From positions 868,001 to 932,000 of the forward strand of contig BDSL01000017.1 of the NCBI GenBank assembly GCA_003116995.1: a stretch of 64,000 bases of DNA, given 5' to 3'. Positions within the stretch are counted from its first letter, which is position 1; each line of letters starts with the position of its first letter. Positions 975 to 38,006 of the stretch are shown in pieces. Both the position numbers and the translations under genes were made by a program. Below the pieces are notes generated by a model. The model ran no database searches. It worked only from the letters and a program-made list of their open reading frames with translations, and was not told the DNA's origin. This stretch comes from Yamagishiella unicocca (lineage: Eukaryota; Chlorophyta; Chlorophyceae; Chlamydomonadales; Volvocaceae).

Positions 975-3900
975 ACACCTGCTCGTGACCTGCTGCTGCC
1001 CTCTCCGTCATCACATGGGTACTTCAGCTCTTGCTCGACACGTAGGAAAGTCCGGCGAGTTCGTCGACGTGGACTTCCTTGTCGTGTCGACCTGACCTAG
1101 CGGGCCGAGGCCGCCAGCTGCCTGCAGCTGCTGCTGTATGCGATCCTGCGTGACATGGACTCGCGGGCAGCGCCGTGTTCCTGTGGCCTGCTACGTGTGC
1201 CACGCCTCTGAGCTGCGGCGGCACCCCTGCGTCACCCTGCCGGGTGTGCCGGAGCACTGCGGCCTGGCGGCCAGGGTGCGGCCCCCGGGGTTTGCTCGAC
1301 CCGCAGCTGCCACCGGCGGTGCAGGAAGCTTACTTGAGACGCAGTGCCCGTTGGCGCTGAAGCCATGAGCGCTTGAGGCTGGCAATTGGATGCGTTGGGT
1401 GCGCTTACGTGATTGAAAGGATCATCACCGTACGTCAGAGCGCTACCGTACGCTGATGGACATACGTGCCCCAGCATGCCCTGAACGCAGAGATGGATGC
1501 AGCTGCATCCCGAAAAGTCGTTGAACCCACGGCCCCTTGGTGTTCCGTGGCGCTCCATTTACCGATTGGGACATGCATGGCTGAATTCGCATTGTGTCCA
1601 AGAACCTTGACCCGATGGTCAACTCAGTGTTGGGAGACGGGTTAGGCGTTAACCTGACATCAACTTCCTGCCTTGGATCCAAGTGTGGATGCAATACACT
1701 CTTCGTTCAGGATTCAGGAACATCGCTTAGCTTTGGTCATTCGACACCGTATCCTTATCCTAGACCTTCGCAACGCTAACGTTGTAGATAAGAGCATCCC
1801 GGACCGCCATATGGCATACGTGTGGTCTGCCTGTATTATAGCAGCCACAGACTTTCCAGGAGTAGTAACTGTATGTTACAATGGGCCCCATACCAGTAAG
1901 GTAGAGCCATTGGGCGCATCGCCTGACGCTGAAAAGAAGAAGCAAATTACAATCGACAGAGGTACGGCTAGCCACGAACAAGGGCCCAGAGGGCAAACAG
2001 CGGCACCAAGCAACCACCCAGGGGAACGTAGCCCCAATGGCCCCCTATCATCAGCAGTACACCAACTGCAGCCCAAGCAGCCCCCCAGCCAGAGCAGCCA
2101 GCACAGCGCCTCAACAAGCCGAGCTGGAGACCCCCACCTGAGACTCAAGAAGATGCCCACCCAGAACGCGCCAGCACCCAGCCCGAAAGGAGGAGGAGGA
2201 AAAAGGGAGCTCCCGCAGGAGCCAGCCAGCCAGGACCTAATCCGACCCCTCAGGACTGGGCGCCGGGTCAACACACACTAGTTGGCCCTGAATAACTCGC
2301 AGCCGAGGGTAGTGGGGACCAACTCCGCCCCAACCCTTGCTCGGGACCCCCAGCGTCGTGAAGGCCAGCAGACGCGACCAGAAGTCCACTACCCCATGCC
2401 GAATCGCACAATCCCGCAAAACCACTTTAGGGCACACACCCTCGATGCAGCGGCCACCGCTCCCGCCCCCCCGCGCCTCTGGAACGAACAGATCACGCTC
2501 GGCCGCGCGAATCGCCACCGTTTCCCATAGTTGCATGAGGGCGGCCACTCGCACCGATATACTCCAAATCGAAATAGGCGGCCACCCCTTCAGCCGCCAC
2601 CCGAGGCGCGCACCCAACAACACCCCCACGGCAGGGTGGTCGGGTGGATCAACACCCGCCGGTGCCCCCCTGCCCGCCACCGCTGCCCGCCACCGCCATC
2701 CGCCAAGGAGAGGGGACGTCCACCCACAGGCCGCATCACACCGCGATGGCTTACGAGACCTCATGCACCCCCCATCATCGCATCATGACACAGGAAAATA
2801 ACCGCCAGGAAGTGCATGGAAGCGCACGCATCACGAGAAAGGATAGCGGATCTGGCTGCAAGCTATTTGGTAAAGGCGGATAAAACCTAGAAGAGTGGAT
2901 AATTGTATAAACTCAGTACGTCAGTAGCATGATTCCTTCTAAACAGGTATGTAAAAGCCACTTCGGCTTGGCAGATACTCCCTGACTCGACCTGCACACG
3001 CCACCCCGGCCATCTCGGCCAGGCCCCACGCTGCTGTTGCCCTGCCACGAGCCTCTCGCCTGCTGTAGATGGCACGGCCGCCCACCGACAGTGCCAGCAG
3101 CACCAGCTGTCCAGGAGTACACACAGACTGTGCGCGATGCAGTTTACGCGGCCACACACCGCTGCATCCCATTGCCATTTGGTCGCACAGTGGCTGCCTT
3201 GCCGCTATCACCCCCGCAGCAAATCCTGCAGCTCCACATTGTCTTCTGCAAAGTGCAGCGCCTTCTTTCCACCCTGTGGCAGCGAGGAGACGGTGAGGGT
3301 TGAGCTTCAGGGGGCCCGACGTCTCCTTCGGGGTTTGTGCAGGGAGGGAATGGCACAAACCCAGATAGCATTGGAAGGGAAATAAAGCGCAGCTAGCTGT
3401 GTGTTTCAATGGAAGTGCTTGGGAGCCAACATCATGCGGCCTCCTGACCCCTCCTAATCAGGAAGCCGATTTGTGCATGACAGACTTGGAAGAATTGTGG
3501 GCGCGCAACGTGCTGTGGACGTCTACACCGCCGCAGCCGCCACACCAACCGGGAAGCAGCGGGAGAATCAGTTGGCTCTACTCCCCGACCCATGTCTTAG
3601 GCCAGGTGGTCAGTTGGTTGGCCCACTGAGCGGGCAGGTGGGGCCGTGGTGTACTGTGGACATCCACACCACCGCCACCACCACATACCGGTACACCAGC
3701 GGCACGAGTGGCACCGGCAGCTGGCATATGGACTCCCTCCCAAACATGTAGGTTGCTGACCCGAAACCCCTTGCGCCCCAGGTGCGTGACGCGAGCCCGC
3801 CCCTAGCCTGCAGCGTCGGCCACCTGGCAGGAAGCAACAAGCATCCATGCCTCATCGCCTCAATTAACCCTGCCATACCCTGCTGCTGGCCCGGGCCCCG

Positions 3901-5405
3901 CCCGGCCCCGCATCCTCCTGTGCGCCACAGCATCCATGCGACCATCCTTTCTGTACTTTTACATACTAGCCGCCGGACACTACCGAGCTCTGTGCCGTGC
4001 CGTACCCTCCGATGCGTACTTAAAGCATGCGCTCCGCCAATTCCTCTTTCGGCGCGCCGTCTGCTGGGCTTCGTCGTTGCTTTGGTCCCTAACCACCCAT
4101 TTGGCCTCCGAACGCACGTGCTGACGCCCGCCGGTGCCTCCCGCCCCCATGCTTCGCGACGTCCGCAATCACCGCCCGCCCTAGGCGCTGGCCGGGTGAG
4201 TTACATGGCTAGGTAGGGAGGCGTTTTTGCTATCGAATTGCTTGCATGTTCGCTTGCGTTCTTGCCTGCGAGCATCCGAGTGTCCGCCTGTGCTTTTCGC
4301 ATTCCCCGGTCCCCCAAGGCGGCGCTGCGCGACTTCGGCATCCTGATACGGACGCTGGATGGCCCTGTCCGGTACTTTCCTACTTCGTTCATCCATGAGT
4401 TCACGGTCTGTATAGGGGCGGGTCCGGGCGTCGCCACGTGTCGCCGCATTTCGCTATCGCATGTCCAGCCACCTCGACAAGTTCTCCACCATGCGCCCAA
4501 AGCTGGCCTCTCACACCCTTTCCCTAATTCGTGCAGGGTCTTTGTTCCGTTATTAGTTTTTGCATAGCAACCGGAGTAGGCATAGCTTCCGACCGTTCTC
4601 GCTCGTTTCCTCAACCAAGTTCTCCGGCATGTCTTTAAACGTGTGTACCAAACGGGTTTCCTACGCGGCCTCCTAGTCGACGGGTTTTCATTAGCCACAC
4701 CCCCATCTATCCCGCCGCGATTCATAATGCAGTCCAGCAGTCCTAACCCATCCCAACCGTCCAACGGCCCAGTGCACAAGCGCTTTCACGACTCCGCAAT
4801 CTATGTTTCATCCTTTGGATACACCGCCGCCAGTTGATCGGATCGCCTTCGCACATGCCTTTGTGTATGTATTTTCAATGGCATACACAATAGCGGTGAT
4901 GCATCTTCTTTCAAACAAGCCTTATCACAAACACCGCATGCAGATCGCGGCCGCCCAATGCGGGTGAGTCGTCACAGCCCGCGGCGCTAACGAACACGCT
5001 ACGCCTGCAGGAAGGCATGGAGCATTGCCCAGGTGCCCCCGCGCTGCTTTCGGCACCAACCCTCGGAGCGCACCTCGGCTACCGCGTCCTTGTTGGCGCC
5101 TGCCTTGAGCAGCTTACGCACCACCGCCACGTGCCCTCGATCAGCGGCCCAAATCAGCGGTGTCCAGCCATGCTGTCCGTCGATAAGTGGCGGCAGGGGC
5201 AGCATTGTCGGTCAAGCGGTCAGTTGGTTGGCCCACTGAGCGGGCAGGTGGGGCCTTCGTGTGCTGTGGACGTCCACACCGCCGCCACCGCAGCTGGCAT
5301 ATGGACTTCCTCCCAGACAAGTAGGCAGATCCCTGACCCGAAACCCCCTGCGCCCCAGATGCGTAACGCTAGCCAGCCCCTGAAGCAACGGCCACCTCGC
5401 TTGCA
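975..5405. repeat. segmental duplication, block 1 of copy A
   Basis: This block is repeated in direct orientation at about 30655-35677. The offset is 30272 bases over the right-hand part (for example 3399 matches 33671 and 4643 matches 34915), and small indels shift it further left. It carries the 3' end of the U-box/ankyrin gene and a LINE-like relic. Copy B additionally contains a 514-bp and a 67-bp insertion that copy A lacks, so copy A preserves the empty sites. The two copies differ by scattered substitutions, indicating an old rather than very recent duplication. Confidence 0.9.
2237..2764 (-). pseudogene. probable LINE ORF2 C-terminal relic (copy A)
   Basis: A 175-codon minus-strand frame includes the stretches SIWSISVRVAALMQLWE, IEGVCPKVVLRDCAIRH and GVVDFWSRLLAF. 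The pattern of Trp and aromatic residues followed by Cys...Cys...His resembles the region after the reverse transcriptase (zf-RVT type) of algal L1-like LINEs; that family link is from memory and not certain. No RT catalytic block is present, so at best this is a 5'-truncated remnant. Compared with the second copy at 32370-33064, about 71 nt are missing between GGRC and IEGVC, which suggests a deletion in this copy. Confidence 0.4.
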
Positions 5406-8400
5406 GGGAAGCAACAAGTGCCCATATCGTCCCTTCAAAATACCGGTACCTCATACCACAACCAACTATCCTGCGGAACATCGGTGATGCATCTTTTTTC
5501 AAACAAACGTTATCACAAACACAGCAGCACACGGCAGCCGCCCAACGCGGGTGAATCGCGATGGTCGCGGCGCAAACGGACATGCGGCTCCTGCAGGAAG
5601 CAGCGCCCAGGCCCTCCCAGCGCTTCCGGCACCAACCCTCGGAGCGCACCTTGTTTGCCGCGTCCTTATTGGCGCCGGCCTTGAGCAGATCACGCACCAT
5701 CCTTACGTACCCTCCTTGAGCGGCCCACATCAGCGGTGTCACACCACCATACTGTCCGTCGATAAGTGGCGGCAGGGGCAGCATTGTCGGTCAAGCGGTC
5801 AGTTGGTTGGCCCACTGAGCGGGCAGGCGGGGCCTTCGTGTGCTGTGGACGTCCACACCGCCGCCACCGCCACACCAGCGGCACGCGATCGAGTGGCACC
5901 GGCAGCTGGCATTTGGACTCCTAGACAAAGAGGTCCTTGACCCGGAACCTATTGTGCACCAGATGCGTGACGCGAGCCCACCCCTGGAGCATCTGCCAGC
6001 TGGCAGCGGGGAAGCAGCAAGCACCCATGCATATCGTCGTCGTCATCAACCACGCACCTATCCTGCCTCGAACCATCACGCAGTCCAGCAGCCCCATGCC
6101 ATCCCAACTGCCCCGACTGCCCAATGCTGGCTCAAGCGCCTTCACGCCTCTTCACTCATGTCTCGATTCTTCCGTGCCATAGACACCGCCTCCATTTGAT
6201 CAGATCACCCTCATGCAATTGTTTGGTTATGGCTTACTCAACAGCGGTGATGCATCCACTTGGAACCAACCCTCATCACAAACACCGCATGCACATGGCG
6301 GCCGCCCAATGCAGGTGAGTCGTAACGGCCCGCGGCGCAAGAAACGGACATGCGGCGCCTACAGGAAGGCATGGAGCATTGCCCAGGTGCCCCCGCGCCG
6401 TTTTCGGCACCAGCAGCCCTCGGAGCGCACCTAACGTGCTATGGACATCCACACCGCCGCAGCCGCCACACCAACCTGGAAGTATCAAGCATCCATGTCT
6501 CATTTCCTCCATAAACCCCGCCACACCCACATATGTGTCTGCACCCCCTGCTGCCTGCCCGCCCCCCGCCCGGCCCCGCATCGTTCTGTGCTCCACAGCA
6601 CCCGTGCGACCATCCTCTCTGCCGCAGCCCTCGGAGCGCACCTCTTTCACCGCTTCCTTGTCGGCGCCTGCCTTGAGCAGCTCACGCACCACCTCCACGT
6701 GCCCTTGATCAACGGCCCACATCAGCGGTGTCCAGCGATTATTCTGTCCGTCAATCCGTGGCGGCAGGGGCAGCATTGTCGGCCAAGCGGTCAGTTGGTT
6801 GGCCCACTGAACGGGCAGGTGGCTGGGGCCGTGTGTGGCGTGCTGTGGACGTCCTCACAGCCGCCACCGCCACACCAGCGGCACGAGTGGCACCGGCAGC
6901 TGGCATATGGACTCCCTCCCAAACATGTTGCTGATCCAAAACCCCTTGCGCCCCAGGTGCGTGACGCGAGCCCGCCCCTGGAGCGTCGGCCACCTGGCAG
7001 GAAGCAACAAGCAACCATGTCTCATGCCTCCATTAACCCTGCCACACCCTGCTGCTGGCCCGGGCCCCGCGCCCGGCCCCGCATCCTCCAGTGCGCCACA
7101 GCATCCGTGCGACCGTCCTTTCTTTATTTTCACATACTAGCCGCCGTACACTACCGAACTATGCGCCGTGCCGTACCCTCCGATGCATACTTTAAGCATG
7201 CGCTCCGCCAATTCCTCTTTCGGCGCGCCGTCTGCTGGGCTTCGTCGTTGCTTTGGTCCCTAACCACCCATTTGGCTTCCGAACGCACGTGCTGACGCCC
7301 GCCGGTGCCTCCTGCCCATATGCTTCGCAACGTCCGCAATCACCGCCCGCCCTAGGCGCTGGCCAGGTGAGTTACATGGCTAGGTAGGTAGGGAGGCGTT
7401 TTCGCTATCGAATTGCCTGGTCGCTTGCGTTCTTGCCTGCGAGCATCCGAGTGTCCGCCTGTGCTTTTCGCATTCCCCGGTCCCCCAAGGCGGCGCTGCG
7501 CGACTTCGGCATCCTGATACGGATGCTGGATGGCCCTGCTGTCCGGTACTTTCCATCTTCATCCATGAGTTCACGGTCTGTATTGGGGCGGGTCCGGGCG
7601 TCACGACGTGTCGCCCCATTTCGCTATCGCATGTCCAGCCACCTCGACAAGTTCTCCACCATGCGCCAGAAGCTGGCCTCCCACACCATTTCCCTAATTC
7701 GTGCAGGTTCTTTGTTCCGTTATTAGTCTATGCATAGCAGCCAGAGTACCGGTAGGCATAGCTTCTGACGGTTCTCGTTTCCTCAACCAAGTCCTCCGTC
7801 CTAAACATGTGTAGCAAACGGTTTCCTACGCGGCTTCCTAGTTGACGGGTTTTCATCAGCCACGTCCACCTATCCTGCCGCGATTCATGCTGCAGTCCAG
7901 CAGCCCCAACCCATCCCAACCGCCCCAACGGCCCAGTACTGGATCAAGCGCTTTCACGATCTCCATTCTATATTTCAGTCCTTTAGATACACCGCCGCCC
8001 GTTAATCGGATCGCCTTTGTACATGCCTTCGTGCATATTTATGCGATGCATGGCATACACAACAGCGGTGATGCCTTATCACGAACACCGCATGGAGATC
8101 GCGGCCGCCCAATGCGGGTTAGTCGTCACAGCCCGCGGCGCAAACGGAAACGCTACGCCTGCAGGAAGCCATGGAGCATTGACCAGGTGCCCCTCGCCGC
8201 ATTCGGCACCAACCCTCGGAGCTCACGATTGCTCACCCCGTCTGCCGCTTCCGTGTTGGCGCGGGCCTTTATCAGATCACACACAACCGCCACGTGCCCT
8301 TCATTAGCGGCCAGCATCAGCGGTGTCCAGCCATCCTGTCCGTCGATAAGTGGCGTCAGGGCCAGTTGTAGGTCAAGCGGTCAGTTGGTTGGCCCACTGA

Positions 8401-11400
8401 GCGGGCACGTGTGGCCGTGGTGTGCTGTGGACGTCCACACCGCCGCCACCGCCACCAGCGGCATCAGCGGCATGCGGTCGAGTGGCACCGGCAGCTGGCA
8501 TATGAATTCTCTTCCAAACAAATAGACAGATCCCTGTCCCACGCACCTACCCTGCCGCGAACCATCATGCAGTCCAGCAGTCCCATGCCACCCCCCCTCC
8601 CGACAGCCCAATGCTGGCTCAAGAGCTTCCACGATTATTCACTCATATCTCGATACTTTCGTGCAATAGGCACCGCCGCCACTTGGTCAGGTCGCTTTCA
8701 TACACGTGATGGCGATGGCTTACACAACACGCAGTGGTGACGCATCCACTTGTAAATAAGCATTTCGGCAAGCACCACACATACACGGCGGCCGCCCAAT
8801 GCGGGTGAGTCGTCACAGCCCGCGGCGCAAACGGACATGCAGGCGCCTGCAGGAAGGCATGGCGCATTGCCCAGGTGCCCCCGCGCTGCTTTCGGCACCA
8901 ACCCTCGGAGCGCACCTCGTTCACTGCGTCCTTGTTGGCGCCTGCCATGAGCAGCTTACGCACCGTCTCCACGTACCCTTCATCAGCGGCCAGCATCAGC
9001 GCTGTCCAGCCATACTGTCCGTCGATAAGTGGCGGCAGGGGCATCGTTGGGGGTTAAGCGGTCAGTTGGTTGGCCCACTGAGCGGGCACGTGTGGCCGTG
9101 GGGTCGGTGCTGTGAACGTCCGCCGCCGCCGACACCGCCGCCACCACCACACCAGCGGCATGCGGTCGAGTGGCACCGGGCAGTTGGCATATGAATTCTC
9201 TTCCAAACAAATAGGCAGATCCCTGTCCCGAGACCTCTTGCCCCAGATGCAGGACGCAAGCCCGCCCCTGGAGCGTCGGCCAGCTGGTAGGGAAGCCGGT
9301 ATGGAAGCTGGTAGGGAAACAGCTGGTAGGGAAGCAGCTGGTAGGGAAGCAGCAAGCATACCGTCGCCTCCATCAACCACGCACCTACCCTGCCGTGAAC
9401 CATCACGAAGTCCAGCAGTCCCATGCCACCCCCCCCCCTCCCGACAGCCCAGCAGTGCTGGCTCAAGCGCTTCCACGATTCTTCAATCACATCTCGATCT
9501 TTTCGTGCAATAGGCACCGCCGCCACTTGGTCAGGTCGCTTTCATACACGTGTTGGCGATGGCTTACTCAACAGCGGTGACGCATCCACTTGGAACCAAC
9601 CCTCATCACAAACACCGCATGCAGATCGCGGCCGCCCAATGCGGGTGAGTCGTCACAGCCCGCGGCGCAAACGAACACGCTACGCGTGCAGGAAGGCATG
9701 GAGCATTGCCCAGGTGCCCCCGCGCCGCTTCCGGCACCAACCCTCGCAGCGCACCCTGTCTGCCGCGTCCTTGTTGGCGCCGTCGTTGAGCAGCTCACGC
9801 ACCACCTCCACGTACCCTTTACTAGCGGCTCGCATCAGCGGTGTCCGGCGGTTCTGTCCGTCGATAAGTGGCGGCAGGGGCAGCATTGTCGGTCAAGCGG
9901 TCAGTTGGTTGGCCCACTGAGCGGGCATGCGGGGCCTTCGTGTGCTGTGGACGTCCACACCGCCGCCACCGCCACACCAGCGGCACGCGATCGAGTGGCA
10001 CCGGCAGCTGGCATTTGGACTCCCTCCTAGACAAAGAGGTCCTTGACCCGCAACCTAATGCGTCCCAGGTGCGTGACGCGAGCCCACCCCTTGAGCATCT
10101 GCCAGCTGGCAGCGGGGAAGCAGCAAACACCCATACCGTCGCCTCCATCAACCACGCACCTATCCTGCCGTGAACCATCACGCAGTCCAGCAGCCCCATG
10201 CCATCCCAACCGCCCCGACTGCCCCGACGGCCCAGGACTGGATCAAGCGCTTTCGCGACCCTGAACGCATGATTCGATTCTTCCGTGTCATAGACACCGC
10301 CTTCATTTGATCAGATCACCCTGGTTACGGCTTACACAGCAAGGTGATGCATCCACTTGGAACCAACCCTCATCACAAATGCCACAAGCAGACGTCTGCC
10401 GCCAAATGCAGGTGAGTCGTAACGGCCCGCGGCGCAAACGGACATGCGGCGCCTACAGAAAGGCATGGAGCATTGCCCAGGTGCCCCCGCGCCGCTTCCG
10501 GCACCAACCCTCGGAGCGCACCTCGTATGCCGCTTCCTTATTGGCGCCGGCCTTGAGCAGATCACGCACCACCTTTACGTACCCTCCTTCAACGGCCCGC
10601 ATCAGCGGTGTCCAGCCATCCTGTCCATCGATCAGTGCCGGCAGGGGCAGCATTGTCGGTAAAGCGGTCAGTTGGTTGGCCCACTGAGCGGGCAGGTGGG
10701 GCCGTGGTGTGCTTTGGACGTCCAAACCAACGCCACCGCCACACCAGCGGCACGAGTAGCACTGGCAGCTGGCATATGGACTCCCTCCCAAACATGTAGG
10801 TTCCTGATCCGAAACCCCTTGCGCCCCAGCTGCGTGACGCGAGCCCGTCCCACGTATGTCTCTGTTCCCCCTGTTGCTGGCCCAGGCCCCGCGCCCGGCC
10901 CCGCATCCTCCAGTGCGCCACAGCACCCGTGCGACCATCCTTTCTGTATTTTTACATACTAGCCGCCGTACACTACCGAGCGAACTGTGTGCCGTGCCGT
11001 ACCCTCCGATGCGTACTTAAAGCATGCGCTCCGCCAATTCCTCTTTCGGCGCGCCGTCTGCTGGGCTTCGTCGTTGCTTTGGTCCCTAACGCACGTGCTG
11101 ACGCCCGCCGGTGCCTCCTGCCTCCATGCTTCGCGACGTCCGCAATCACCGCCCGCCCTAGGCGCTGGCCGGGTGAGTTACATGGCTAGGTAGGGAGGCG
11201 TTTTTGCTATCGAATTGCTTGCATGTTCGCTTGCGTTCTTGCCTGCGAGCATCCGAGTGTCCGCCTGTGCTTTTCGCATTCCCCGGTCCCCCAAGGCGGC
11301 GCTGCGCGACTTCGGCATCCTGATACGGACGTTGGATGGCCCTGTCCGGTACTTTCCTACTTCGTTCATCCATGAGTTCACGGTCTGTATTGGGGCGGGT

Positions 11401-14400
11401 CCGGGCGTCGCCACGTACGTGTCGCCGCATTTCGCTATCGCACGTCCAGCCACCTCGACAAGTTCTCCAACATGCGCCCAAAGCTGGCCTCTCACACCCT
11501 TTCCCTAATTCGTGTCTATGCATAGCAGCCGGAGTAGGCATAGCTTCCGACGGTTCTCGTTTCCTCAACCAAGTTCTCCGGCATGTCTTTTTCATGTGTA
11601 CCAACGGTTTCCTACGCGGCTTCCTAGTTGACGGGTTTTCATCAGCCACACCCACCTATCCTGCCGCGATTCATGATGCAGTCCAGCAGCCCCAACCCAT
11701 CCCAACCGTCCCAACGGCCCAGTACTTGCGCAAGCGCTTTCACGATCTCCACTCTATATTTCGGTCCTTTACATACACCGCCGCCCGTTAATCGGATCGC
11801 TTTTGTACATGCCTCGTGCATCTGTATGCGATGGCATATGGAGCATTGCCCAGGTGCCCCCCTGCTGCTTCCGGCACCAGCAGCCCTCGGAGCGCACCTC
11901 GTCTGCCGCTTCCGTGTTGGCGCCGGCCTTGAGCAGCTCACGCACCATCACCACGTTCTCTTGACTAGCGGCTCGCATCAGCGATGTACAGCCATCCTGT
12001 CCGTCGGTAAGTGGGCGGCAGGGCCAGTTGTAGGTCAAGCGGTCAGTTGGTTGGCCCACTGATGAGCGGGCGGGCAGGTGGGGCCGTGGTGTGCTGTGGA
12101 CGTCCACATCGCCGCCACCGCCACACCAGCGGCACGCGATCGAGTGGCACCGGGCAGTTGGCATATGAATTCTCTTCCAAACAAATAGGCAGATCCCTGT
12201 TCCGAGACCTCTTGCCCCAGATGCAGGACGCAAGCCCGCCCCTGGAGCGTCGGCCAGCTGGTAGGGAAGCAGCAAGCACGCCGGTAGGGAAGCTGGTAGG
12301 GAAGCAGCTGGTAGGGAAGCAGCTGGTAGGGAAGCAGCAAGCATACCGTCGCCTCCATCAACCACGCACCTACCCCGCCTCGAACCATCACGCAGTCCAG
12401 CAGTCCCATGCCACCCCCCCCCTCCCGACAGCCCAATGCTGGCTCAAGAGCTTCCACGATTATTCACTCATATCTCGATACTTTCGCGCAATAGGCACCG
12501 CCGCCACTTGGTCAGGTCGCTTTCATACACGTGATGGCGATGGGCTTACACAACAGTGGCGACGCATCCACTTGTAAATAAGCATTTCGGCAAGCACCAC
12601 ACATACACGGCGGCCGCCCAATGCGGGTGAGTCGTCACAGCCCGCGGCGCAAACGGACATGCAGGCGCCTGCAGGAAGGCATGGAGCATTGCCCAGGTGC
12701 CCCCGCGCCGCTTCCGGCACCAACCCTCCCAGCGCTTCCGGCACCAACCCTCGGAGCGCACCTACCCTGCTGTCTGCCGCGTCCTTGTTGGCGCCTGCCT
12801 TGAGCAGCTCACGCACCACCTCCACGTGCCCTTCATCAGCGGCCCAAATCAGCGGTGTCCAGCCATCCTGTCCATCGATAAAAGGCGGCAGGGGCAGCGT
12901 TGTCGATCGGCCAAGCGGTCAGTTGATTGGCCCACTGAGCGGGCAGGTGGGGCCGTGGACGTCCAAACCAACGCCACCGCCACACCAGCGGCACGAGTGG
13001 CACCGGCAGCTGGCATATGGACTCCCTCCCCAACATGTAGGTTCCTGATCCGAAACCCCTTGCGCCCCAGCTGCGTGACGCGAGCCCGTCCCACGTATGT
13101 CTCTGTTCCCCCTGTTGCCTGCCCACCCGCCGCCCGGCCCCGCATCCTCCTGTACGCCACAGCACCCGCCGTGCGACCATCCTTTCTGTATTTTCACTTT
13201 CTAGCCGCCGTACACTGCCGAACTGTGTGCCGTGCCGTACCCTCCGATGCATACTCAAAGCATGCGCTCCGCCAATTCCTCTTTCGGCGCGCCGTCTGCT
13301 GGGCTTCGTCGTTGCTTTGGTCCCTAACCACCCATTTGGCCTCCGAACGCACGTGCTGACGCCCGCCGGTGCCTCCTGCCCACATGCTTCGCGACGTCCG
13401 CAATCACCGCCCGCCCTAGGCGCTGGCCGGGTGAGTTACATGGCTAGGTAGGGAGGCGTTTTTGCTATCGAATTGCTTGCATGTTCGCTTGCGTTCTTGC
13501 CTGCGAGCATCCGAGTGTCCGCCTGTGCTTTTCGCATTCCCCGGTCCCCCAAGGCGGCGCTGCGCGACTTCGGCATCCTGATACGGACGTTGGATGGCCC
13601 TGTCCGGTACTTTCCTACTTCGTTCATCCATGAGTTCACGGTCTGTATTGGGGCGGGTCCGGGCGTCGCCACGTACGTGTCGCCGCATTTCGCTATCGCA
13701 CGTCCAGCCACCTCGACAAGTTCTCCAACATGCGCCCAAAGCTGGCCTCTCACACCCTTTCCCTAATTCGTGTCTATGCATAGCAGCCGGAGTAGGCATA
13801 GCTTCCGACGGTTCTCGTTTCCTCAACCAAGTTCTCCGGCATGTCTTTTTCATGTGTACCAACGGTTTCCTACGCGGCTTCCTAGTTGACGGGTTTTCAT
13901 CAGCCACACCCACCTATCCTGCCGCGATTCATGATGCAGTCCAGCAGCCCCAACCCATCCCAACCGTCCCAACGGCCCAGTACTTGCGCAAGCGCTTTCA
14001 CGATCTCCACTCTATATTTCGGTCCTTTACATACACCGCCGCCCGTTAATCGGATCGCTTTTGTACATGCCTCGTGCATCTGTATGCGATGGCATATGGA
14101 GCATTGCCCAGGTGCCCCCCTGCTGCTTCCGGCACCAGCAGCCCTCGGAGCGCACCTCGTCTGCCGCTTCCGTGTTGGCGCCGGCCTTGAGCAGCTCACG
14201 CACCATCACCACGTCCTCTTGAATAGCGGCTCGCATCAGCGATGTACAGCCATCCTGTCCGTCGGTAAGTGGGCGGCAGGGCCAGTTGTATGTCAAGCGG
14301 TCAGTTGGTTGGCCCACTGATGAGCGGGCGGGCAGGTGGGGCCGTGGTGTGCTGTGGACGTCCACATCGCCGCCACCGCCACACCAGCGGCACGCGATCG

Positions 14401-17400
14401 AGTGGCACCGGGCAGTTGGCATATGAATTCTCTTCCAAACAAATAGGCAGATCCCTGTTCCGAGACCTCTTGCCCCAGATGCAGGACGCAAGCCCGCCCC
14501 TGGAGCGTCGGCCAGCTGGTAGGGAAGCAGCAAGCACGCCGGTAGGGAAGCTGGTAGGGAAGCAGCTGGTAGGGAAGCAGCTGGTAGGGAAGCAGCAAGC
14601 ATACCGTCGCCTCCATCAACCACGCACCTACCCCGCCTCGAACCATCACGCAGTCCAGCAGTCCCATGCCACCCCCCCCTCCCGACAGCCCAATGCTGGC
14701 TCAAGAGCTTCCACGATTATTCACTCATATCTCGATACTTTCGCGCAATAGGCACCGCCGCCACTTGGTCAGGTCGCTTTCATACACGTGATGGCGATGG
14801 GCTTACACAACAGTGGCGACGCATCCACTTGTAAATAAGCATTTCGGCAAGCACCACACATACACGGCGGCCGCCCAATGCGGGTGAGTCGTCACAGCCC
14901 GCGGCGCAAACGGACATGCAGGCGCCTGCAGGAAGGCATGGCGCATTGCCCAGGTGCCCCCGCGCCGCTTCCGGCACCAACCCTCCCAGCGCTTCCGGCA
15001 CCAACCCTCGGAGCGCACCTACCCTGCTGTCTGCCGCGTCCTTGTTGGCGCCTGCCTTGAGCAGCTCACGCACCACCTCCACGTGCCCTTCATCAGCGGC
15101 CCAAATCAGCGGTGTCCAGCCATCCTGTCCATCGATAAAAGGCGGCAGGGGCAGCGTTGTCGATCGGCCAAGCGGTCAGTTGATTGGCCCACTGAGCGGG
15201 CAGGTGGGGCCGTGGACGTCCAAACCAACGCCACCGCCACACCAGCGGCACGAGTGGCACCGGCAGCTGGCATATGGACTCCCTCCCCAACATGTAGGTT
15301 CCTGATCCGAAACCCCTTGCGCCCCAGCGAGCTGCGTGACGCGAGCCCGTCCCACGTATGTCTCTGTTCCCCCTGTTGCCTGCCCACCCGCCGCCCGGCC
15401 CCGCATCCTCCTGTACGCCACAGCACCCGCCGTGCGACCATCCTTTCTGTATTTTCACTTTCTAGCCGCCGTACACTGCCGAACTGTGTGCCGTGCCGTA
15501 CCCTCCGATGCATACTCAAAGCATGCGCTCCGCCAATTCCTCTTTCGGCGCGCCGTCTGCTGGGCTTCGTCGTTGCTTTGGTCCCTAACCACCCATTTGG
15601 CCTCCGAACGCACGTGCTGACGCCCGCCGGTGCCTCCTGCCCACATGCTTCGCGACGTCCGCAATCACCGCCCGCCCTAGGCGCTGGCCGGGTGAGTTAC
15701 ATGGCTAGGTAGGGAGGCGTTTTTGCTATCGAATTGCTAGCTTGCATGTTCGCTTGCGTTCTTGCCTGCGAGCATCCGAGTGTCCGCCTGTGCTTTTCGC
15801 ATTCCCCGGTCCCCCAAGGCGGCGCTGCGCGACTTCGGCATCCTGATACGGACGTTGGATGGCCCTGTCCGGTACTTTCCTACTTCGTTCATCCATGAGT
15901 TCACGGTCTGTATTGGGGCGGGTCCGGGCGTCGCCACGTACGTGTCGCCGCATTTCGCTATCGCACGTCCAGCCACCTCGACAAGTTCTCCAACATGCGC
16001 CCAAAGCTGGCCTCTCACACCCTTTCCCTAATAATTCGTGTCTATGCATAGCAGCCGGAGTAGGCATAGCTTCCGACGGTTCTCGTTTCCTCAACCAAGT
16101 TCTCCGGCATGTCTTTTTCATGTGTACCAACGGTTTCCTACGCGGCTTCCTAGTTGACGGGTTTTCATCAGCCACACCCACCTATCCTGCCGCGATTCAT
16201 GATGCAGTCCAGCAGCCCCAACCCATCCCAACCGTCCCAACGGCCCAGTACTTGCGCAAGCGCTTTCACGATCTCCACTCTATATTTCGGTCCTTTACAT
16301 ACACCGCCGCCCGTTAATCGGATCGCTTTTGTACATGCCTCGTGCATCTGTATGCGATGGCATATGGAGCATTGCCCAGGTGCCCCCCTGCTGCTTCCGG
16401 CACCAGCAGCCCTCGGAGCGCACCTCGTCTGCCGCTTCCGTGTTGGCGCCGGCCTTGAGCAGCTCACGCACCATCACCACGTTCTCTTGACTAGCGGCTC
16501 GCATCAGCGATGTACAGCCATCCTGTCCGTCGGTAAGTAGGCGGCAGGGCCAGTTGTAGGTCAAGCGGTCAGTTGGTTGGCCCACTGATGAGCGGGCGGG
16601 CAGGTGGGGCCGTGGTGTGCTGTGGACGTCCACATCGCCGCCACCGTCACACCAGCGGCACGCGATCGAGTGGCACCGGGCAGTTGGCATATGAATTCTC
16701 TTCCAAACAAATAGGCAGATCCCTGTTCCGAGACCTCTTGCCCCAGATGCAGGACGCAAGCCCGCCCCTGGAGCGTCGGCCAGCTGGTAGGGAAGCAGCA
16801 AGCACGCCGGTAGGGAAGCTGGTAGGGAAGCAGCTGGTAGGGAAGCAGCTGGTAGGGAAGCAGCAAGCATACCGTCACCTCCATCAACCACGCACCTACC
16901 CCGCCTCGAACCATCACGCAGTCCAGCAGTCCCATGCCACCCCCCCCCTCCCGACAGCCCAATGCTGGCTCAAGAGCTTCCACGATTATTCACTCATATC
17001 TCGATACTTTCGCGCAATAGGCACCGCCGCCACTTGGTCAGGTCGCTTTCATACACGTGATGGCGATGGGCTTACACAACAGTGGCGACGCATCCACTTG
17101 TAAATAAGCATTTCGGCAAGCACCACACATACACGGCGGCCGCCCAATGCGGGTGAGTCGTCACAGCCCGCGGCGCAAACGGACATGCAGGCGCCTGCAG
17201 GAAGGCATGGAGCATTGCCCAGGTGCCCCCGCGCCGCTTCCGGCACCAACCCTCCCAGCGCTTCCGGCACCAACCCTCGGAGCGCACCTACCCTGCTGTC
17301 TGCCGCGTCCTTGTTGGCGCCTGCCTTGAGCAGCTCACGCACCACCTCCACGTGCCCTTCATCAGCGGCCCAAATCAGCGGTGTCCAGCCATCCTGTCCA

Positions 17401-20400
17401 TCGATAAAAGGCGGCAGGGGCAGCGTTGTCGATCGGCCAAGCGGTCAGTTGATTGGCCCACTGAGCGGGCAGGTGGGGCCGTGGACGTCCAAACCAACGC
17501 CACCGCCACACCAGCGGCACGAGTGGCACCGGCAGCTGGCATATGGACTCCCTCCCCAACACGTAGGTTCCTGATCCGAAACCCCTTGCGCCCCAGCGAG
17601 CTGCGTGACGCGAGCCCGTCCCACGTATGTCTCTGTTCCCCCTGTTGCCTGCCCACCCGCCGCCCGGCCCCGCATCCTCCTGTACGCCACAGCACCCGCC
17701 GTGCGACCATCCTTTCTGTATTTTCACTTTCTAGCCGCCGTACACTGCCGAACTGTGTGCCGTGCCGTACCCTCCGATGCATACTCAAAGCATGCGCTCC
17801 GCCAATTCCTCTTTCGGCGCGCCGTCTGCTGGGCTTCGTCGTTGCTTTGGTCCCTAACCACCCATTTGGCCTCCGAACGCACGTGCTGACGCCCGCCGGT
17901 GCCTCCTGCCTCCATGCTTCGCGACGTCCGCAATCACCGCCCGCCCTAGGCGCTGGCCGGGTGAGTTACATGGCTAGGTAGGGAGGCGTTTTTGCTATCG
18001 AATTGCTTGCATGTTCGCTTGCGTTCTTGCCTGCGAGCATCCGAGTGTCCGCCTGTGCTTTTCGCATTCCCCGGTCCCCCAAGGCGGCGCTGCGCGACTT
18101 CGGCATCCTGATACGGACGTTGGATGGCCCTGTCCGGTACTTTCCTACTTCGTTCATCCATGAGTTCACGGTCTGTATTGGGGCGGGTCCGGGCGTCGCC
18201 ACGTACGTGTCGCCGCATTTCGCTATCGCATGTCCAGCCACCTCGACAAGTTCCACCATGCGCCAAAAGCTGGCCTCTCACACCGTTTCTCTAATTCGTG
18301 CCTATGCATAGCAGCCGGAGTAGGCATAGCTTCCGGCCGTTCTCGTTTCCTCAACCAAGTTCTCCGGCATGTATTAAACATGTGTACCAACGGTTTCCTA
18401 CGCGGCTTCCTAGTTGACGGGTTTTCATCAGCCACGTCCACCTATCCTGCCGCGATTCATGCTGCAGTCCAGCAGCCCCAACCCATCCCAACCGCCCCAA
18501 CGGCCCAGTACTTGCGCAAGCGCTTTCACGATCTCCACTCTATATTTCGGTCCTTTACATACACCGCCGCCAGTTAATCGGATCGCTTTTGTACATGCCT
18601 CGTGCATCTGTATGCGATGGCATATGGAGCATTGCCCAGGTGCCCCGCGCGCGCCACTTCGGGCACCAGCAGCCCTCGGAGCGCACCTTGTCTGCTGCTT
18701 CCGTCTTGGCTTTGGCCTTGAGCAGCTTACGCACCACCTCCACGTGCTCTTCCTTAGCGGCGAAAATCAGCGGTGTCCAGCCATCCTGTCCGTCGATAAG
18801 TGGGCGGCAGGGCCAGTTGCTAGTGGTCAGTTGGTTGGCCCACTGAGCGGGCAGGTGGGGCCGTGGGGTGCTGTGGACGTCCACACCGCCGCCACCGCCA
18901 CCAGCGGCATCAGCGGCATGCGGTCGAGTGGCACCGGGCAGTTGGCATATGAATTCTCTTCCAAACAAATAGGCAGATCCCTGTCCCACGCACCTACCCT
19001 GCCGCGAACCATCACGCAGTCCAGCAGTCCCATGCCACCCCCCCCTCCCGACAGCCCAATGCTGGCTCAAGCGCTTCCACGACTCTTCACTCATATCTCG
19101 ATACTTTCGTGCAATAGGCACCGCCGCCACTTGGTCAGGTCGCTTTCATACACGTGATGGCGATGGCTTACACAACACGCAGTGGTGACGCATCCACTGG
19201 TCAATAAGCATTTCCGTCGGCAATCAAACACCGTATGCACTTGGCGGCCACCCAAGCAATGCGGGTGAGTTGCGACGGCCCGCGGCGCAAGAAACGGACA
19301 TGCGGCGTCTGCAGGAAGGCATGGAGCATTTACCAGGTGCCCCCGCGCTGGTATGGTTCCGGCACCAACTCTTGGAGCGCACCTCGTTCACCGCTTCCTT
19401 GTTGGCGCCGGCCTTGAGCAGCTTAAGCACCACCTTCACGTTCCCTTCACTAGCGGCTCGCATCAGCGGTGTCATCCCAGCCTGTCCATCGTAAAGCGGG
19501 GGGGGGGCAGCGTTGTCTATCAGACAGTCAGTTGGCTGGCTGGTGCCCCTACACAGGTGGTGCATGGCTGTCGAGCCCACTGAGTGGACACATGGGGCCG
19601 TTGGGCGGAGGGAGGTGGTGTGGCGGTGTGCTGTATGTTGGCGTTCTCACCGCCGCCGACTCCAAAAGATGTTTATGATCACCCGTGGAACATCTGAGGC
19701 CAGGCCCCCAGAACGGCCATGGCTGTAGCAGACCTCTGCCACCGCCACACGCACCAGGAGCAGAGAGGACCACACCAACCCATGGCGCACGGATACAAAC
19801 CTCACCGGGCAAGTTACGTCACCGGGCAGCAGGGCACACCCCTCACTACACTGATAAGCGCAACGGCGGCGGTGCAGCGAGGCCACCACCTGACACCAGT
19901 CCAGTTGCACCCTCAACGGTGCTCTGGGACGGCACTCACCCGTTTGATTTCGCTCTCAGGACACCACCTCTGCATTGCCACGTGCACAAACCTAAGAAGT
20001 TCTGGATTGGACCTCCCACCCTACCCTACCTAGCGGACAGCAACGAATGACTTTCTGTCATCATTCGCATCATGCTTCCACGTTTCCTGTAACATCAGAT
20101 TTCCTGGTATCTACAGAACCTGACGACAACAGCCTCCGCCAGCGGGTGAGGAGCGAGGGGCGCACCCAGCCTGCTGCACTCGGTTCGTCCTCCGTACGTA
20201 ACCCGGAGGCCACCCCCGCCCTCACAGCGTATGTTGCACACCAACAGCTTCAAATCAACCTAGACACAGCCTGGGCACACAGGTGGCGGTGCGTGGTGAG
20301 TGCCCGCTTTCCCCTAGTAGTGCCGCAAGCAACATTTTGCCGATATCAATTGGTTAAATGTATGATGAATCGATATCAATCGCTTGGTAAATGACAAAGA

Positions 20401-23111
20401 TACGGACACTAGTTGCTCGCTTTAATGTTGTAAGCTTTTCTCCTATTTACCGCTGCGCAGGAGATAGACGCAAGCACGGCACGTGGCGTACCTCGTCACG
20501 CTCCTCGAGCCACTGCTTCGCATTGGAAGGTTGAGGCACCGGCAGCTCTGCTGCGTCCACCTGATCGTGTTCGAGCTCATGCTGCTTCAGCCATGATTGA
20601 ATCGAGTTACGCAGCGTAATGTTGCCGATCAGCGTCTTGGACGTGAGGGACAGGTCTGAGGCATCGAGTAGTGGGCCGGTGGGCGGAGGCAGGGTTGAGT
20701 GGGGGGGCGACGACATCTACCCAGGAAAGAAGTAAGGTAAATAGAGCTTATAATGCGTGAAAGTAATCGAATACATACCGCCAAAAATGGTGACCTTGGA
20801 GGCGGCCACTCGGTAAAAGTAAGGCAACATGCGGGATGAACGGACGCGTGATCCTGAAATGTTGAATGCGCGGGCTTTGAGATCCCTATGCCGTCCAGCA
20901 TTTCCTCACTCGCAAACACACCGCTTGATGATAGATGCGGATGCGGTGCCTGCTCGCAGCCCATGCGTGTCAGATACATCGGCACACATCCATGCCATGC
21001 TATGCGACAGCGGTCTGTGCCGGAAGGGAAATAAAGGAGGGCAGGGGGAAGGCCAGTAGCGTCCGGGTGGTCTTTGCCGCTGGACCGGACCACTCACTGG
21101 TGATGGGATTGGTGTTCCTCTTGGCCAGGTGCCGCTGGATGGCTTCCCGCTCGAACGAGTGGCCGCCCTCCAAAATGACCGGGTCACGCATCACACGCAG
21201 CGTAATGGAACAGACGAACTCCGGCGGCATGGACCTGGCCGCAGTAGTGGCACGGCGGCTGCTGGAGCTGTTACCCCCACCATCGACGCCCCACTGCTGG
21301 CACAATGCCAGAGCTGCCACGATCTGCGATAGGTACCGCTCCTCCATGTGCCGCTTTCCCCGATGCAGCTCCGTCAGCTCCCCCTGCTGCTGTGCGGCGC
21401 TGATGTCGTCCGCAGCCTGCGGCCACATTTCGACAGCAGGCATCGTACTCACTAATACCCGCATGTGGTAGGTTCAATAAGCTAAGGGGGCATGAGTCTA
21501 GTTCCACCATGCATCATGCACAACAGCTGTGATGCGCACAAGCGCCCACTCGGCAGCGAGGACATGCATGTGTACGTGTTGGAAAGAACTCCACCAGACC
21601 ACGTTGGCCACGTGGTGCGCACTCGCTCCCCCCAAATTGTGACAACTCGTTTCCTAACGTTCTTGTCGGCTTTGGGGGGAAATCGTCCTCAGATTTCTGG
21701 CAATCAACCTAACTTGTCCAGCAAGCACCAACCCGATGACACCACCCCTTATCCAGTCTCTATGCACCCTGCTCCCACTGCCAGTTCCCACGTGTATCAT
21801 ACCTGCGCGCTCATGCCTGTGGCGCTCTTCTCCACCACACCTGCCTGCTCCAGGCTGGCCAGCACTGCAGCCGCGATGCGCTTCGCCTCGACCATTGCCG
21901 TGTCATCAGCAGCTGAGCTGCTGGCCGCACGCTCTGCGACCTGCTGCGCGTTCGCCCTCGGACAATCCATCTGCTCAAATAGCTTCCATGCCTGGGCCTC
22001 GAAGCCAAGTAGCACCTCGAGTGGCACGTTGGCCAGGTCGGCTTGCAAGTCGACCAACTCGGCGTGCTGTTCATCAATGCCCATGGAGGTTTGGACGGCG
22101 CTCAGGTCGTTTGACAGCCGCTTCGCGACGGCCCTCAACTCCGCTACGTATTTGCCTGGTGGGTGGGTGGGCGGGTGTCACATGGGACGTGGGGGGATCG
22201 ACTGCCTTCGTCCATGTCGCGTCCAAGTGCCCCGCCCCTGAGCCCTGACAGAGCTACCAGGACGGAGATCGCGATGTAACTCAGCACGCCGTGTGATGGA
22301 GAGCATGCCGTCGTGCAGATACCATGAGGACGACGTCTCTGCCGCCGCGCCCTCATAGTGCAAAGGTCACCCGCTAGGTTCCCTTGCGTGCTACGCTGGC
22401 CATCTGATTATTTGCACGCCGCCGCGGCGCATTCTCTTTCTTCAAGGACGTCGCTGCAGCATCTGAAGCGCGGGGTATTCGGCAAAGCTGTTCTGCTTGT
22501 AAACGTTTAACTTCTGCTAGCTATTTTGAGGTAAACATTCACCGTGTGTCAGGATGTTAATCCTTGCCTGTACAGGCGCTTCCCTAACATGTACACGGGC
22601 GTACGCAGTACTCCCAGCTCAATATGCTCAATAACAACTTTGTTTCATCCTTCATCCAGCATCCCAGCGCACCAGCAGTGAAGAACTTGGCAATGGTCGA
22701 CATTTTGGCCAGACGCTCCGCCACGGCCAGGCAGTCGGCCATTGATTTATTCAACCCCTGTTGTTTAAAATAGGAACGAACAAAAAAAGGAATACGACTC
22801 AAACCAGGCACAGGTCGCACAGTCTGCTCATGTACCAATCTACCGGTACCCATTAACCAGCGATGCTTAAAAATAAAATTTCTTTTTGAAACCGGCGTCA
22901 CCCTTAAATATCCTACCTCTAGGGCGGAAATGGTATCGGGCTTGGACAGGCGGCAGACTGCCTGCCTGGCAGCTTCCACTCCCGCAGCCACGCGTTGCAC
23001 CAGCTCGCTCATGGCAATACCATCTTGCTTAATATCGTTGAGGTCCGCCAACGCAGCCGCCGCCTTAGAGGCCACGCTGGCGATGCTGGCCACCAACCCA
23101 TTTGCATCCAT
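3208..23111 (-). CDS. MLKL/HeLo-like bundle, U-box and 15-ankyrin-repeat protein (21 exons, 919 aa)
   Basis: Exons on the minus strand: 23111-22917, 22757-22595, 22155-21803, 21416-21098, 20655-20492; fifteen ankyrin exons between 19481 and 5074; terminal exon 3273-3208 (GGKKALHFAEDNV..., TGA). All phases join in frame. Residues 1-130 are helical; the stretch LAKMSTIAKFFTAG matches the pattern of the MLKL-type four-helix bundle used by cell-death effectors and plant HeLo proteins (family knowledge). Residues about 300-370 form a U-box split by a phase-1 intron (PPEFVCSITLRVMRDPV, GHSFER, NPIT, then LTSKTLIGNITLRNSIQSW), expected to recruit an E2 and ubiquitylate bound targets. Residues 399-898 are ankyrin repeats, the likely binding surface. 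The donor of exon 2 (T|GTACAT) is the weakest junction. A ligand, partner or death function is inference. No TGTAA signal was found downstream. Confidence 0.82.
9285..16861. repeat. 15-bp minisatellites in the array introns
   Basis: Short tracts of the unit AGCTGGTAGGGAAGC occur at about 9285-9355, 12259-12335, 14516-14592 and 16785-16861, each with four or five imperfect units. They sit at equivalent places of successive array units and are open in several frames because 15 is a multiple of three. They lie within introns of the U-box/ankyrin gene. Confidence 0.85.
11090..18230. repeat. three near-identical 2.26-kb tandem units inside the ankyrin array
   Basis: Landmarks recur with periods of 2257-2258 and then 2268-2269 bases (11898/14156/16424 and 12766/15023/17292 for the two ankyrin exons of each unit). 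Each unit holds two different ankyrin exons, a 15-bp minisatellite and a roughly 900-bp intron repeat. The difference in period comes from small indels, for example four extra bases near 15329 and near 15737. A fourth, diverged unit is suggested by the exon at 18687 (period 2263) and a diverged upstream one by 10522. The very high identity implies recent unequal exchange or conversion. Confidence 0.92.
19482..20491. other. intron between the U-box exon and the first ankyrin exon
   Basis: This is the spacer between exon 5 and the first ankyrin exon of the large minus-strand gene. It has no coding frame I can support. Its left part (19482-20227) is absent from the duplicate locus, while 20228 onward is shared with 35678 onward, which places the rearrangement junction here. 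Confidence 0.6.
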
Positions 23112-36400: not shown

Positions 36401-38006
36401 TGTGTACGTGTTGGAAAGAACTCCACCAAACCACGTTGGCCACGTGGTGCGCACTCGCTCCCCCCCAATTGTGACAACTCGTTTCCTAACGTTCTTGTCG
36501 GCTTTGGGGGGAAATCGTCCTCAGATTCTGGCAATCAACCTAACTTGTCCAGCAAGCACCAACCCGATGACACCACCCCTTTCCAGTCTCTATGCACCCT
36601 GCTCCCACTGCCAGTTCCCACGTGTATCATACCTGCGCGCTCATGCCTGTGGTGCTCTTCTCCACCACACCCGCCTGCTCCACGCTGGCCAGCACTGCAG
36701 CCGCGATGCGCTTCGCCTCGACCAGTGCCGAGGCGAAGCGCATCGCGGCTGCAGTGCTGGCCAGCCTGGAGCAGGCGGGTGTGGTGAAGAAGAGCGCCAC
36801 AGGCATGAGCGCGCAGGTATGATACCAGTGCCGTGTCATCATCAGCTGAGCTGCTGGCCGCAAGCTCTGCGAACTGCGCGTTCATCCTCGGACAATCCAG
36901 CTGCTCAAGCTGCTCAAATATTTTCCACGCCTGGGCTTCGAAGCCAAGTAGCACCTCCAGTGGCACGTTGGCCAGGTCGGCTTGCAAGTCGGCCAAGCAA
37001 CAATGTCTTAATATCGGCGTTCTGCTCATCAATGCCCATGGAGGTTTGGAAGGCGATCAGGCCGTTAGACAGCCGCTTCGTGACGGCCCTCAATTCCGCT
37101 ACGTGTTTGCCCGGTGGTGGGTGGGCGGGTGTCACATGGGACGTGGCGGGATCGACTGCCTTCGTCCATGTCGCGTCCAAGTGCCCCCTGAGCCCTGACA
37201 GAGCTACCAAACAGGACGGAGCGCGCGACGTAACTCAGCACGCCGTGTGATCGAGAGCATGCCGTCCTGCAGACACCATGAGGACATTTCGCCGTCGCGC
37301 CTCCATAGTGCAAAGGTCATCGCTAGATGCTGTGCGTGCTACGCTGGCCATCTGATTATTTGCATGCCGCATTCTCTTTCTTCAAGGACCTCGCTGCAGC
37401 ATCTGAAGCGCGAGGTATTCGGCAAAGCTGTTCTGCTTGTAAACCTTAAACTTCTGCTATTTAAAGGTAAACATTCACCCTGTGTTAGGATGTTAATCCT
37501 TGCATTTACAGGCGCTTCCCCAACGGGCGTACACAGAACTCCCAGCTCAATATGCTCAATAGCAACTTATTTTCCGTCCTTCACCCAGCATCCCAGCGCA
37601 CCCAGCAGTGAAGAACTTGGCAATGGTCGACGTTTTGTCCAGACGCTCCGCCACAGCCAGGCAGTCGGCCATTGATTCATTCAACCCCTGTTGTTCAAAA
37701 TACCGGTAGGAACGACTCAAACCAGGCACAGGTCGCGCAGTCTACGCATGTACCGGTACCCATTAACCAGCGATGCTTTAAAAGGATTTTTTTGAAACCG
37801 GCGTCACCCTTAAATATCCTACCTCAAGGGCAGAAATGATACTGGACTTGGACAGGCGGCTGCCTGGCAGCTTCCACTCCCGCAGCCACGCGTTGCACCA
37901 GCTCGCTCATGGCAAGGCCATCTTGCTTATCATTGAGGTCCGCCAACGCAGCCGCCGCCTTAGAGGCCACGCTGGCGATGCTGGCCACCAACCCATTTGC
38001 ATCCAT
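33480..38006 (-). pseudogene. decayed duplicate of the U-box/ankyrin gene
   Basis: Recognisable parts, in transcript order: exon 1 from ATG 38006 with an 8-nt deletion near 37860; exon 2 near 37660-37560 with one extra base near 37602; exon 3 near 37110-36625 with a 16-nt insertion near 37000 and a 97-bp inverted duplication; exon 4 near 36264-36107 lacking the first half of the U-box; exon 5 near 36040-35885 with the LTSKTLIDNIGL segment locally repeated; one ankyrin exon at 35446-35348; terminal exon 33545-33480. The single ankyrin exon has TGA at 35411-35413 where copy A has CGA. Fourteen of fifteen ankyrin exons are missing. Multiple independent lesions make a functional product unlikely. 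Confidence 0.88.
36624..36825. repeat. 97-bp inverted duplication (hairpin) in pseudogene exon 3
   Basis: The left arm 36624-36720 and right arm 36729-36825 are reverse complements with three mismatches, separated by the 8-base loop ACCAGTGC. Copy A has only one arm (about 21795-21892). The duplicate arm therefore arose after the segmental duplication, inverted and adjacent, as expected from template switching during repair. Confidence 0.95.

Follow-up and report, generated by a model that had tools for sequence, protein, structure and literature searches.

The window, a 64,000-nucleotide stretch of a Yamagishiella unicocca contig, contains a spliced gene model on the minus strand that runs from an ATG at 23111 to a TGA at 3208. 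The model, predicted from DNA alone, comprises 21 exons with a combined length of 2682 nt and encodes 893 amino acids plus the stop codon; all introns are GT-AG, the phases are consistent, and there are no internal stops. The 893-residue product carries, in this order, an MLKL_N-like domain, a U-box, 15 ankyrin repeats and a C-terminal cap. The first-pass annotation had placed an MLKL/HeLo-like N-terminus, a U-box and an ankyrin array in a single protein, and the open, phase-consistent model with its Pfam domains agrees with this architecture.

Two alternative exon assignments were rejected. Starting exon 5 at 20716 did not yield a consistent frame, and the acceptor at 20655 gives both the frame and a canonical U-box. 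Intron 1, which precedes exon 2, is open in the window copy; its retention as coding sequence was ruled out because all 12 modelled paralogues have stops there (its length is also not a multiple of three in L027, L032 and L044).

Table 1 Features of the U-box/ankyrin gene and of its degraded second copy in the window
Feature	Position	Strand	Basis
Exon 1: start codon, first MLKL_N-like helices, residues 1–65	22917..23111	-	spliced gene model
Exon 2 (85 nt): MLKL_N-like, bears most of the LAKMSTIAKFFTAG motif	22673..22757	-	spliced gene model
Exon 3: end of MLKL_N-like domain and linker, residues 94–211	21803..22155	-	spliced gene model
Exon 4: linker and first part of U-box (about 21233–21098), residues 212–317	21098..21416	-	gene model, Pfam
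Exon 5: second part of U-box (to about 20570), then linker to ankyrin array, residues 318–372	20492..20655	-	
Ankyrin exon 1	19383..19481	-	gene model
Ankyrin exon 2	18687..18785	-	gene model
Ankyrin exon 3 (unit A, first of pair)	17292..17393	-	gene model
Ankyrin exon 4 (unit A, second of pair)	16424..16522	-	gene model
Ankyrin exon 5 (unit B)	15023..15124	-	gene model
Ankyrin exon 6 (unit B)	14156..14254	-	gene model
Ankyrin exon 7 (unit C)	12766..12867	-	gene model
Ankyrin exon 8 (unit C)	11898..11996	-	gene model
Ankyrin exon 9	10522..10620	-	gene model
Ankyrin exon 10	9755..9853	-	gene model
Ankyrin exon 11	8916..9014	-	gene model
Ankyrin exon 12	8237..8335	-	gene model
Ankyrin exon 13	6642..6743	-	gene model
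Ankyrin exon 14	5650..5751	-	gene model
Ankyrin exon 15	5074..5172	-	gene model
Terminal exon: C-terminal cap and stop codon	3208..3273	-	gene model, related terminal exons elsewhere
Three tandem units (2258, 2268 and 2263 bp), two ankyrin exons each	11898..18686	-	
Degraded second copy: one ankyrin exon (with stop), same first and last exons	33480..38006	-	

Among the 16 Pfam families matched by the window protein there is no kinase or pseudokinase of the kind that forms the C-terminus of MLKL, and no NB-ARC or NACHT domain that would place the protein with the NLR/STAND receptors; NTPase, TIR and kinase domains are likewise absent from the Pfam matches of the window protein and its family members. 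By Pfam, the repeats that follow the U-box in the window protein are ankyrin and not armadillo, the latter being found in a paralogue on contig C15 (see below). Elsewhere in the window, a plus-strand open frame at 41291–42109 resembles, as read from the sequence, a piece of a retroelement gag/protease gene, and an adjoining Nup88 nucleoporin gene (56161–57774, minus strand), 53% identical to its Volvox carteri counterpart, has a long simple repeat in frame. In the genome as a whole, PF12499 (DUF3707), which we take to be the pherophorin family, has 161 matches.

The gene belongs to a family that is well supported at the DNA level. The exon-3 protein used as a query gave 18 matches, corresponding to 13 further loci and the degraded window copy. 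Of 20 genomic regions examined, 12 (L027, L031–L040 and L044) hold the N-terminal exons, always in the identical order, with no internal stop and with the phase 0 donor of exon 1 in common. The intron phases are 0, 1, 0 and 1 in 11 of these 12, the phase of the third intron in L044 varying with the guide protein. The L035 model needs a frameshift; in L027, exon 3 carries a deletion and one splice or frameshift is doubtful. A further partial copy of the N-terminal exons is present in L022. In the remaining eight regions, which were left unused, no convincing model of this N-terminus was obtained; a diverged version may be present in L042 and L043.

At 10 of the 11 ankyrin-class loci (the C15 locus is left out of this count) the U-box is succeeded by ankyrin exons; at the remaining one, L034, the contig breaks off about 0.6 kb further on. 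Five of the loci (L033–L037) are 99.6–99.97% identical to each other over about 3 kb, and L038 and L039 on C62 are 100% identical over 3.3 kb. Such near-identity reflects either very recent duplication or redundancy of the assembly, and the two groups were therefore counted as two. They account for six of the ten loci, so that the domain order first noticed in the window is seen again in six distinct cases elsewhere in this volvocine genome. Several of the near-identical copies (L033–L037, L038 and L039) lie on small contigs or at contig ends.

The number of repeats ranges from three in L031 (C34) and L027 (C47) and four in L032 (C62) to 15 in the window. The arrays of L027, L031 and L032 are each closed by a relative of the terminal exon, as is the degraded window copy (33545–33480), which lacks the first half of the U-box and has a rearranged exon 3. 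On contig C142 (G000:C142:51967–84487, minus strand, partly L022), 25 ankyrin matches extend over about 32 kb downstream of a U-box exon on the same strand; this array is possibly the longest of the family, the 25 matches being candidates for parts of a single gene. Six other U-box genes (L028, L029, L030, L041, L045 and L046, on C60, C174 and C80) share the phase-1 U-box intron and have a different N-terminus; no ankyrin exon was found within the 10 kb examined at these loci.

Both of the repeated or catalytic domains named in the first-pass annotation are recovered by Pfam, the ankyrin repeats as 15 PF00023 stretches and the U-box as PF04564 (residues 275–344, E = 5.7e-21, profile positions 2–72 of 73). 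The U-box is split between exons 4 and 5 by a phase-1 intron with the donor GTGAGT. It aligns to PUB12 and CHIP without long gaps and keeps the equivalents of CHIP Ile235, His260 and Pro269, which are presumably the residues that contact the E2; the His and Pro are invariant in all nine aligned family members, and the Ile is present in eight. At two usual prolines the window U-box is off consensus (CSI and IGN), which we counted against the explanation favoured below. The dN/dS of the U-box is 0.17–0.91 (21 pairs of seven members), and the ligase core is thus constrained.

The C15 paralogue (L044; G000:C15:1220218–1230217) has a related N-terminus with a weak MLKL_N match and a related U-box; its identity to the window protein is 42% over the N-terminus plus U-box and 41% over the N-terminal domain. 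Its next exon lies in a 1092-codon open frame, in which the rest of the U-box is followed by 17 Arm stretches (Pfam Arm, 1.3e-151; ARM_PUB, 7.6e-39); the armadillo repeats resemble one another and sit on a single long exon, and the domain order is that of plant PUB-ARM proteins. Relatives outside the genome were sought among proteins of about 490–1560 and 195–620 amino acids, with 7999 candidates scored in each search and Volvox carteri proteins in the database. For the N-terminus plus U-box query, only two matches were found among the 7999 candidates scored, P0001 and P0002, and both are U-box/armadillo proteins; P0002 is, by name, a PUB44-like protein of Actinidia, and P0001 has no MLKL_N match. 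The other database matches were two short U-box proteins and a 182-residue fragment, P0003, which covers 30% of the query at 59% identity. The ankyrin family is best seen as sharing a common core with a PUB-ARM-like gene, such as the one at C15, but having another repeat domain, through an exchange that may have gone in either direction. A single genome thus shows an apparent armadillo/ankyrin exchange behind a related N-terminus and U-box.

Each of the 15 ankyrin exons of the window gene encodes one repeat of 33 or 34 residues and has phase 0 at both ends, so that an exon with its introns can be gained or lost with the frame intact; this one-exon-one-repeat layout makes the repeat number easily changed. 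The three tandem units differ from one another by only 4, 32 and 28 substitutions, which indicates a recent triplication; when their 67-residue products are compared in pairs, 65, 67 and 65 residues agree. As judged from these sequences, the array grows by tandem duplication of intron-exon cassettes.

Selection on the repeats was assessed by within-locus comparison of 34 distinct repeats from seven non-redundant loci, identical repeats being counted once. Two of 57 repeat matches were dropped by a pattern filter; also left out were the repeats of the redundant loci L036, L037 and L039 and two repeats with insertions (L032 and L040); L035, 99.6% identical to L033, was dropped from the final counts. 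Contacts were scored at positions 2, 3, 5, 13, 14 and 33, which we take to be those randomised in designed ankyrin proteins. The dN/dS is 4.13 at the contacts, 1.23 elsewhere and 1.71 overall (locus bootstrap 95% intervals 2.59–5.94, 0.86–1.70 and 1.40–2.23, respectively). The contacts exceed random sets of six positions with a permutation p of 0.0003, for a set that replaced an earlier one partly picked after the variability table and that was itself chosen with the table known. Taken singly, six of the seven loci have the contact excess (3.67–8.19 at contacts), and one, L040, does not (0.79). The sensor role that had been proposed for the array gains support from this concentration of changes at the contact positions.

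In a near-identical ankyrin array on contig C193, for which 11 of 14 distinct repeats and five contact positions were scored, dN/dS is 0.73 over all positions and 1.09 at the contacts, and the method alone therefore does not yield high values. This array (L050; G000:C193:69500–75700) consists of 18 single-repeat exons that are for the most part near-identical and spaced by about 304 bp; among the 47 match places listed, none is a U-box match on this contig.

The synonymous rate deserves caution. In the repeats, pS is about 0.11 and pN at the contacts is 0.36, and G or C occupies 549 of 740 four-fold third positions, a moderate GC bias. Divergence of the flanking introns is 0.00–0.12 in the nearest 50 bp; at 200–300 bp it is 0.22–0.38 upstream and 0.01–0.39 downstream, the distant alignments being forced and noisy. 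The high exon divergence of L032 stems in part from misalignment at one insertion and was left unused. Both pS and the divergence of the nearest intron sequence lie below that of the introns 200–300 bp upstream, so homogenisation or constraint near the exons may lower dS. Measured against the distant upstream introns, the contacts evolve at or slightly above the neutral rate and the rest of the exon more slowly. The concentration of changes at contacts is independent of dS, whereas the claim of positive selection depends on it.

The explanation we favour, though at somewhat less than even odds, is that the window gene encodes a PUB-like U-box E3 ligase of a volvocine family with a diversifying ankyrin array, acting as a recognition-type ligase in defence, in self/non-self discrimination or in the control of selfish elements. 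The array would bind a foreign protein or another that changes fast, the U-box would recruit an E2 and ubiquitylate the bound protein or the receptor complex, and the N-terminal domain would provide self-assembly or membrane attachment. The pattern of variation suggests that the ankyrin array probably recognises foreign or fast-evolving proteins and makes the family a candidate algal sensor of self/non-self or of pathogens. To our knowledge, the means by which green algae detect pathogens, viruses or non-self are little known, and the combination of a constrained ligase core with an array variable at its binding face offers a direct, testable candidate for such recognition.

It is possible, but in our estimate rather doubtful, that the family consists of ordinary housekeeping or stress E3 ligases expanded by duplication and that the ankyrin pattern is relaxed divergence after duplication. 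U-box/ankyrin proteins are common in Chlamydomonas reinhardtii, where ankyrin repeats occur in 5 of the 30 CrPUBs in the available part of a published survey (PMC4378952), and duplicated protein repeats generally pass through relaxed and positive selection, with high horizontal dN/dS a general feature, according to the accessible portion of a study of repeat evolution (PMC5120217). The near-identical copies and the degraded copy fit birth-and-death evolution, and the contacts are near neutral when set against the distant introns. However, relaxation brings dN/dS up to 1 and not to about 4, it does not by itself concentrate changes at the contacts, and the near-identical C193 array gives the low values stated above.

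The N-terminal domain bears on a further alternative. The Pfam cut-off for MLKL_N is 27 bits; the window copy scores 15.7 bits as the full protein and 18.1 or 19 bits depending on query length (19 bits for the first 282 residues), below the cut-off in each case. Of the nine aligned family members, eight include the N-terminus, and all eight match MLKL_N (best E = 1.4e-6), three of them above the cut-off. When cut to the domain, L031, L032 and L040 reach 30.4, 29.3 and 28.0 bits, and L038, L033, L027 and L044 stay below the cut-off with 25.2, 24.6, 22.8 and 16.7 bits. None of 10 shuffles of two members matched MLKL_N. One shuffle matched EAD8 at E = 0.009, about the level at which the full window protein matches MLKL_N, so the window copy alone would be no evidence for the relationship, and the match becomes convincing only when the paralogues are added. 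L040 also weakly matches SesA (E = 0.0019), and four of the nine members weakly match DUF7792 (best 0.0069).

A profile built from the eight domains gave six matches among PDB sequences, five of which are MLKL N-terminal chains, and aligned the N-terminal motif singled out by the first-pass annotation with an MLKL N-terminal segment; the MLKL chains head the list, at E values (0.25–0.29) that are not significant alone. At the level of the family, with three of eight members over the Pfam cut-off, the claimed relationship is supported, and the N-terminus likely belongs to the MLKL/HeLo superfamily. A six-frame MLKL_N search of the genome misses the family because the domain is split over exons, and returned only contig C84. 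The gene found there (L049, 1411–2457, minus strand) is a separate one, whose MLKL_N-like stretch falls short of the cut-off with 23.3 bits; the sequence MGNSCNK in its frame may be an N-myristoylation start.

From this relatedness, membrane-damaging cell death by the N-terminal domain is possible. The protein as a whole could then be a self-contained death receptor, in which ligand binding by the array would drive the first helix of the putative MLKL/HeLo-like bundle into a membrane and kill the cell, with the U-box tuning or ending the response. We consider this unlikely. The membership in the MLKL_N family and the SesA match in one member speak for it, the domain begins at residue one, as in those HeLo and CC-RPW8 domains in which the helix at the extreme N-terminus is the part that attacks membranes, and HeLo or SesA domains are fused straight to sensors in fungal receptors, in the sections available of a recent account (PMC12881547). 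Against it, the dN/dS of exons 1–3 (0.50–2.92 over 21 pairs of seven members) gives little sign of a tightly held pore, and the Pfam matches of the window protein include no NTPase switch. Members of the MLKL_N/HeLo superfamily also occur on proteins without a known killing role. PUB-ARM proteins and the C15 gene already place repeats behind a U-box, and the U-box half therefore need not be part of a death device. The excess of dN/dS over 1 for exons 1–2 in 6 of the 21 pairs was counted against the recognition-type ligase as well.

A broader version, in which these genes form a volvocine receptor class that takes the place of NLRs by joining in one protein a death bundle, a ubiquitin ligase and a hypervariable ankyrin sensor, and in which the shuffling of one-repeat exon cassettes creates the repertoire, appears equally improbable to us. 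A six-frame search of the genome for NB-ARC gave two partial matches, each with a stop, in a search that intron-split genes could escape.

That two genes, a U-box gene and an unrelated ankyrin gene behind it, were read as one is very improbable: although the exons were modelled from DNA alone and are separated by introns of up to 1.8 kb, their order and strand are kept with matching phases at all ankyrin-class loci but the one cut short by a contig end, a related terminal exon recurs among loci, the degraded copy retains the first exons together with one ankyrin exon and the terminal exon, and at C15 a single open frame spans both the end of the U-box, its second half, and the Arm repeats.

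Returning to the recognition-type ligase, we compared the window family with known systems. Plant PUB-ARM proteins, exemplified by the SAUL1/PUB44 and SPL11 classes, share with it the order of a U-box followed by helical repeats, and the C15 paralogue has ARM_PUB itself. The window family differs in that its repeats are ankyrin instead of armadillo and diversify at the contacts, and in that its N-terminus matches MLKL_N, with no PUB N-terminal family among its Pfam matches. Its N-terminus is linked to the MLKL, HeLo and SesA four-helix domains by profile match, including the segment with the motif noted earlier; in MLKL a kinase or pseudokinase is present, whereas none was matched in the window protein.

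Among the CrPUBs of Chlamydomonas, also a green alga, are proteins with both a U-box and ankyrin repeats; in the available part of the survey, the PUB-ARM order was not found among the CrPUBs and an MLKL-like domain is not named for them (PMC4378952). While the U-box/ankyrin combination is known from Chlamydomonas, the MLKL_N-like domain together with the diversifying array appears to be what is new here, and the titles and abstract openings of the papers found do not name the combination of an MLKL_N-like domain, a U-box and ankyrin repeats.

The closest mechanistic parallel is provided by the fungal NLRs with highly conserved repeats. In the portions available of the reports on these receptors, the ANK repeats are strongly conserved internally and are under positive selection on their concave side; of the positively selected positions of ANK, TPR and WD repeats, all but one map to the concave surface that binds the ligand, and repeats of such high internal conservation were reported at only 0.4% in green plants (PMC4986451). 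Receptors such as hnwd and Pa_3_8560 thus resemble the window family in their near-identical repeats, changing repeat number and variation at the binding face (PMC4986451, PMC12881547), and some fungal NLRs bear HeLo or SesA N-termini (PMC12881547). The two differ at the centre of the molecule, where the fungal receptors have NACHT or NB-ARC and the window protein has a U-box.
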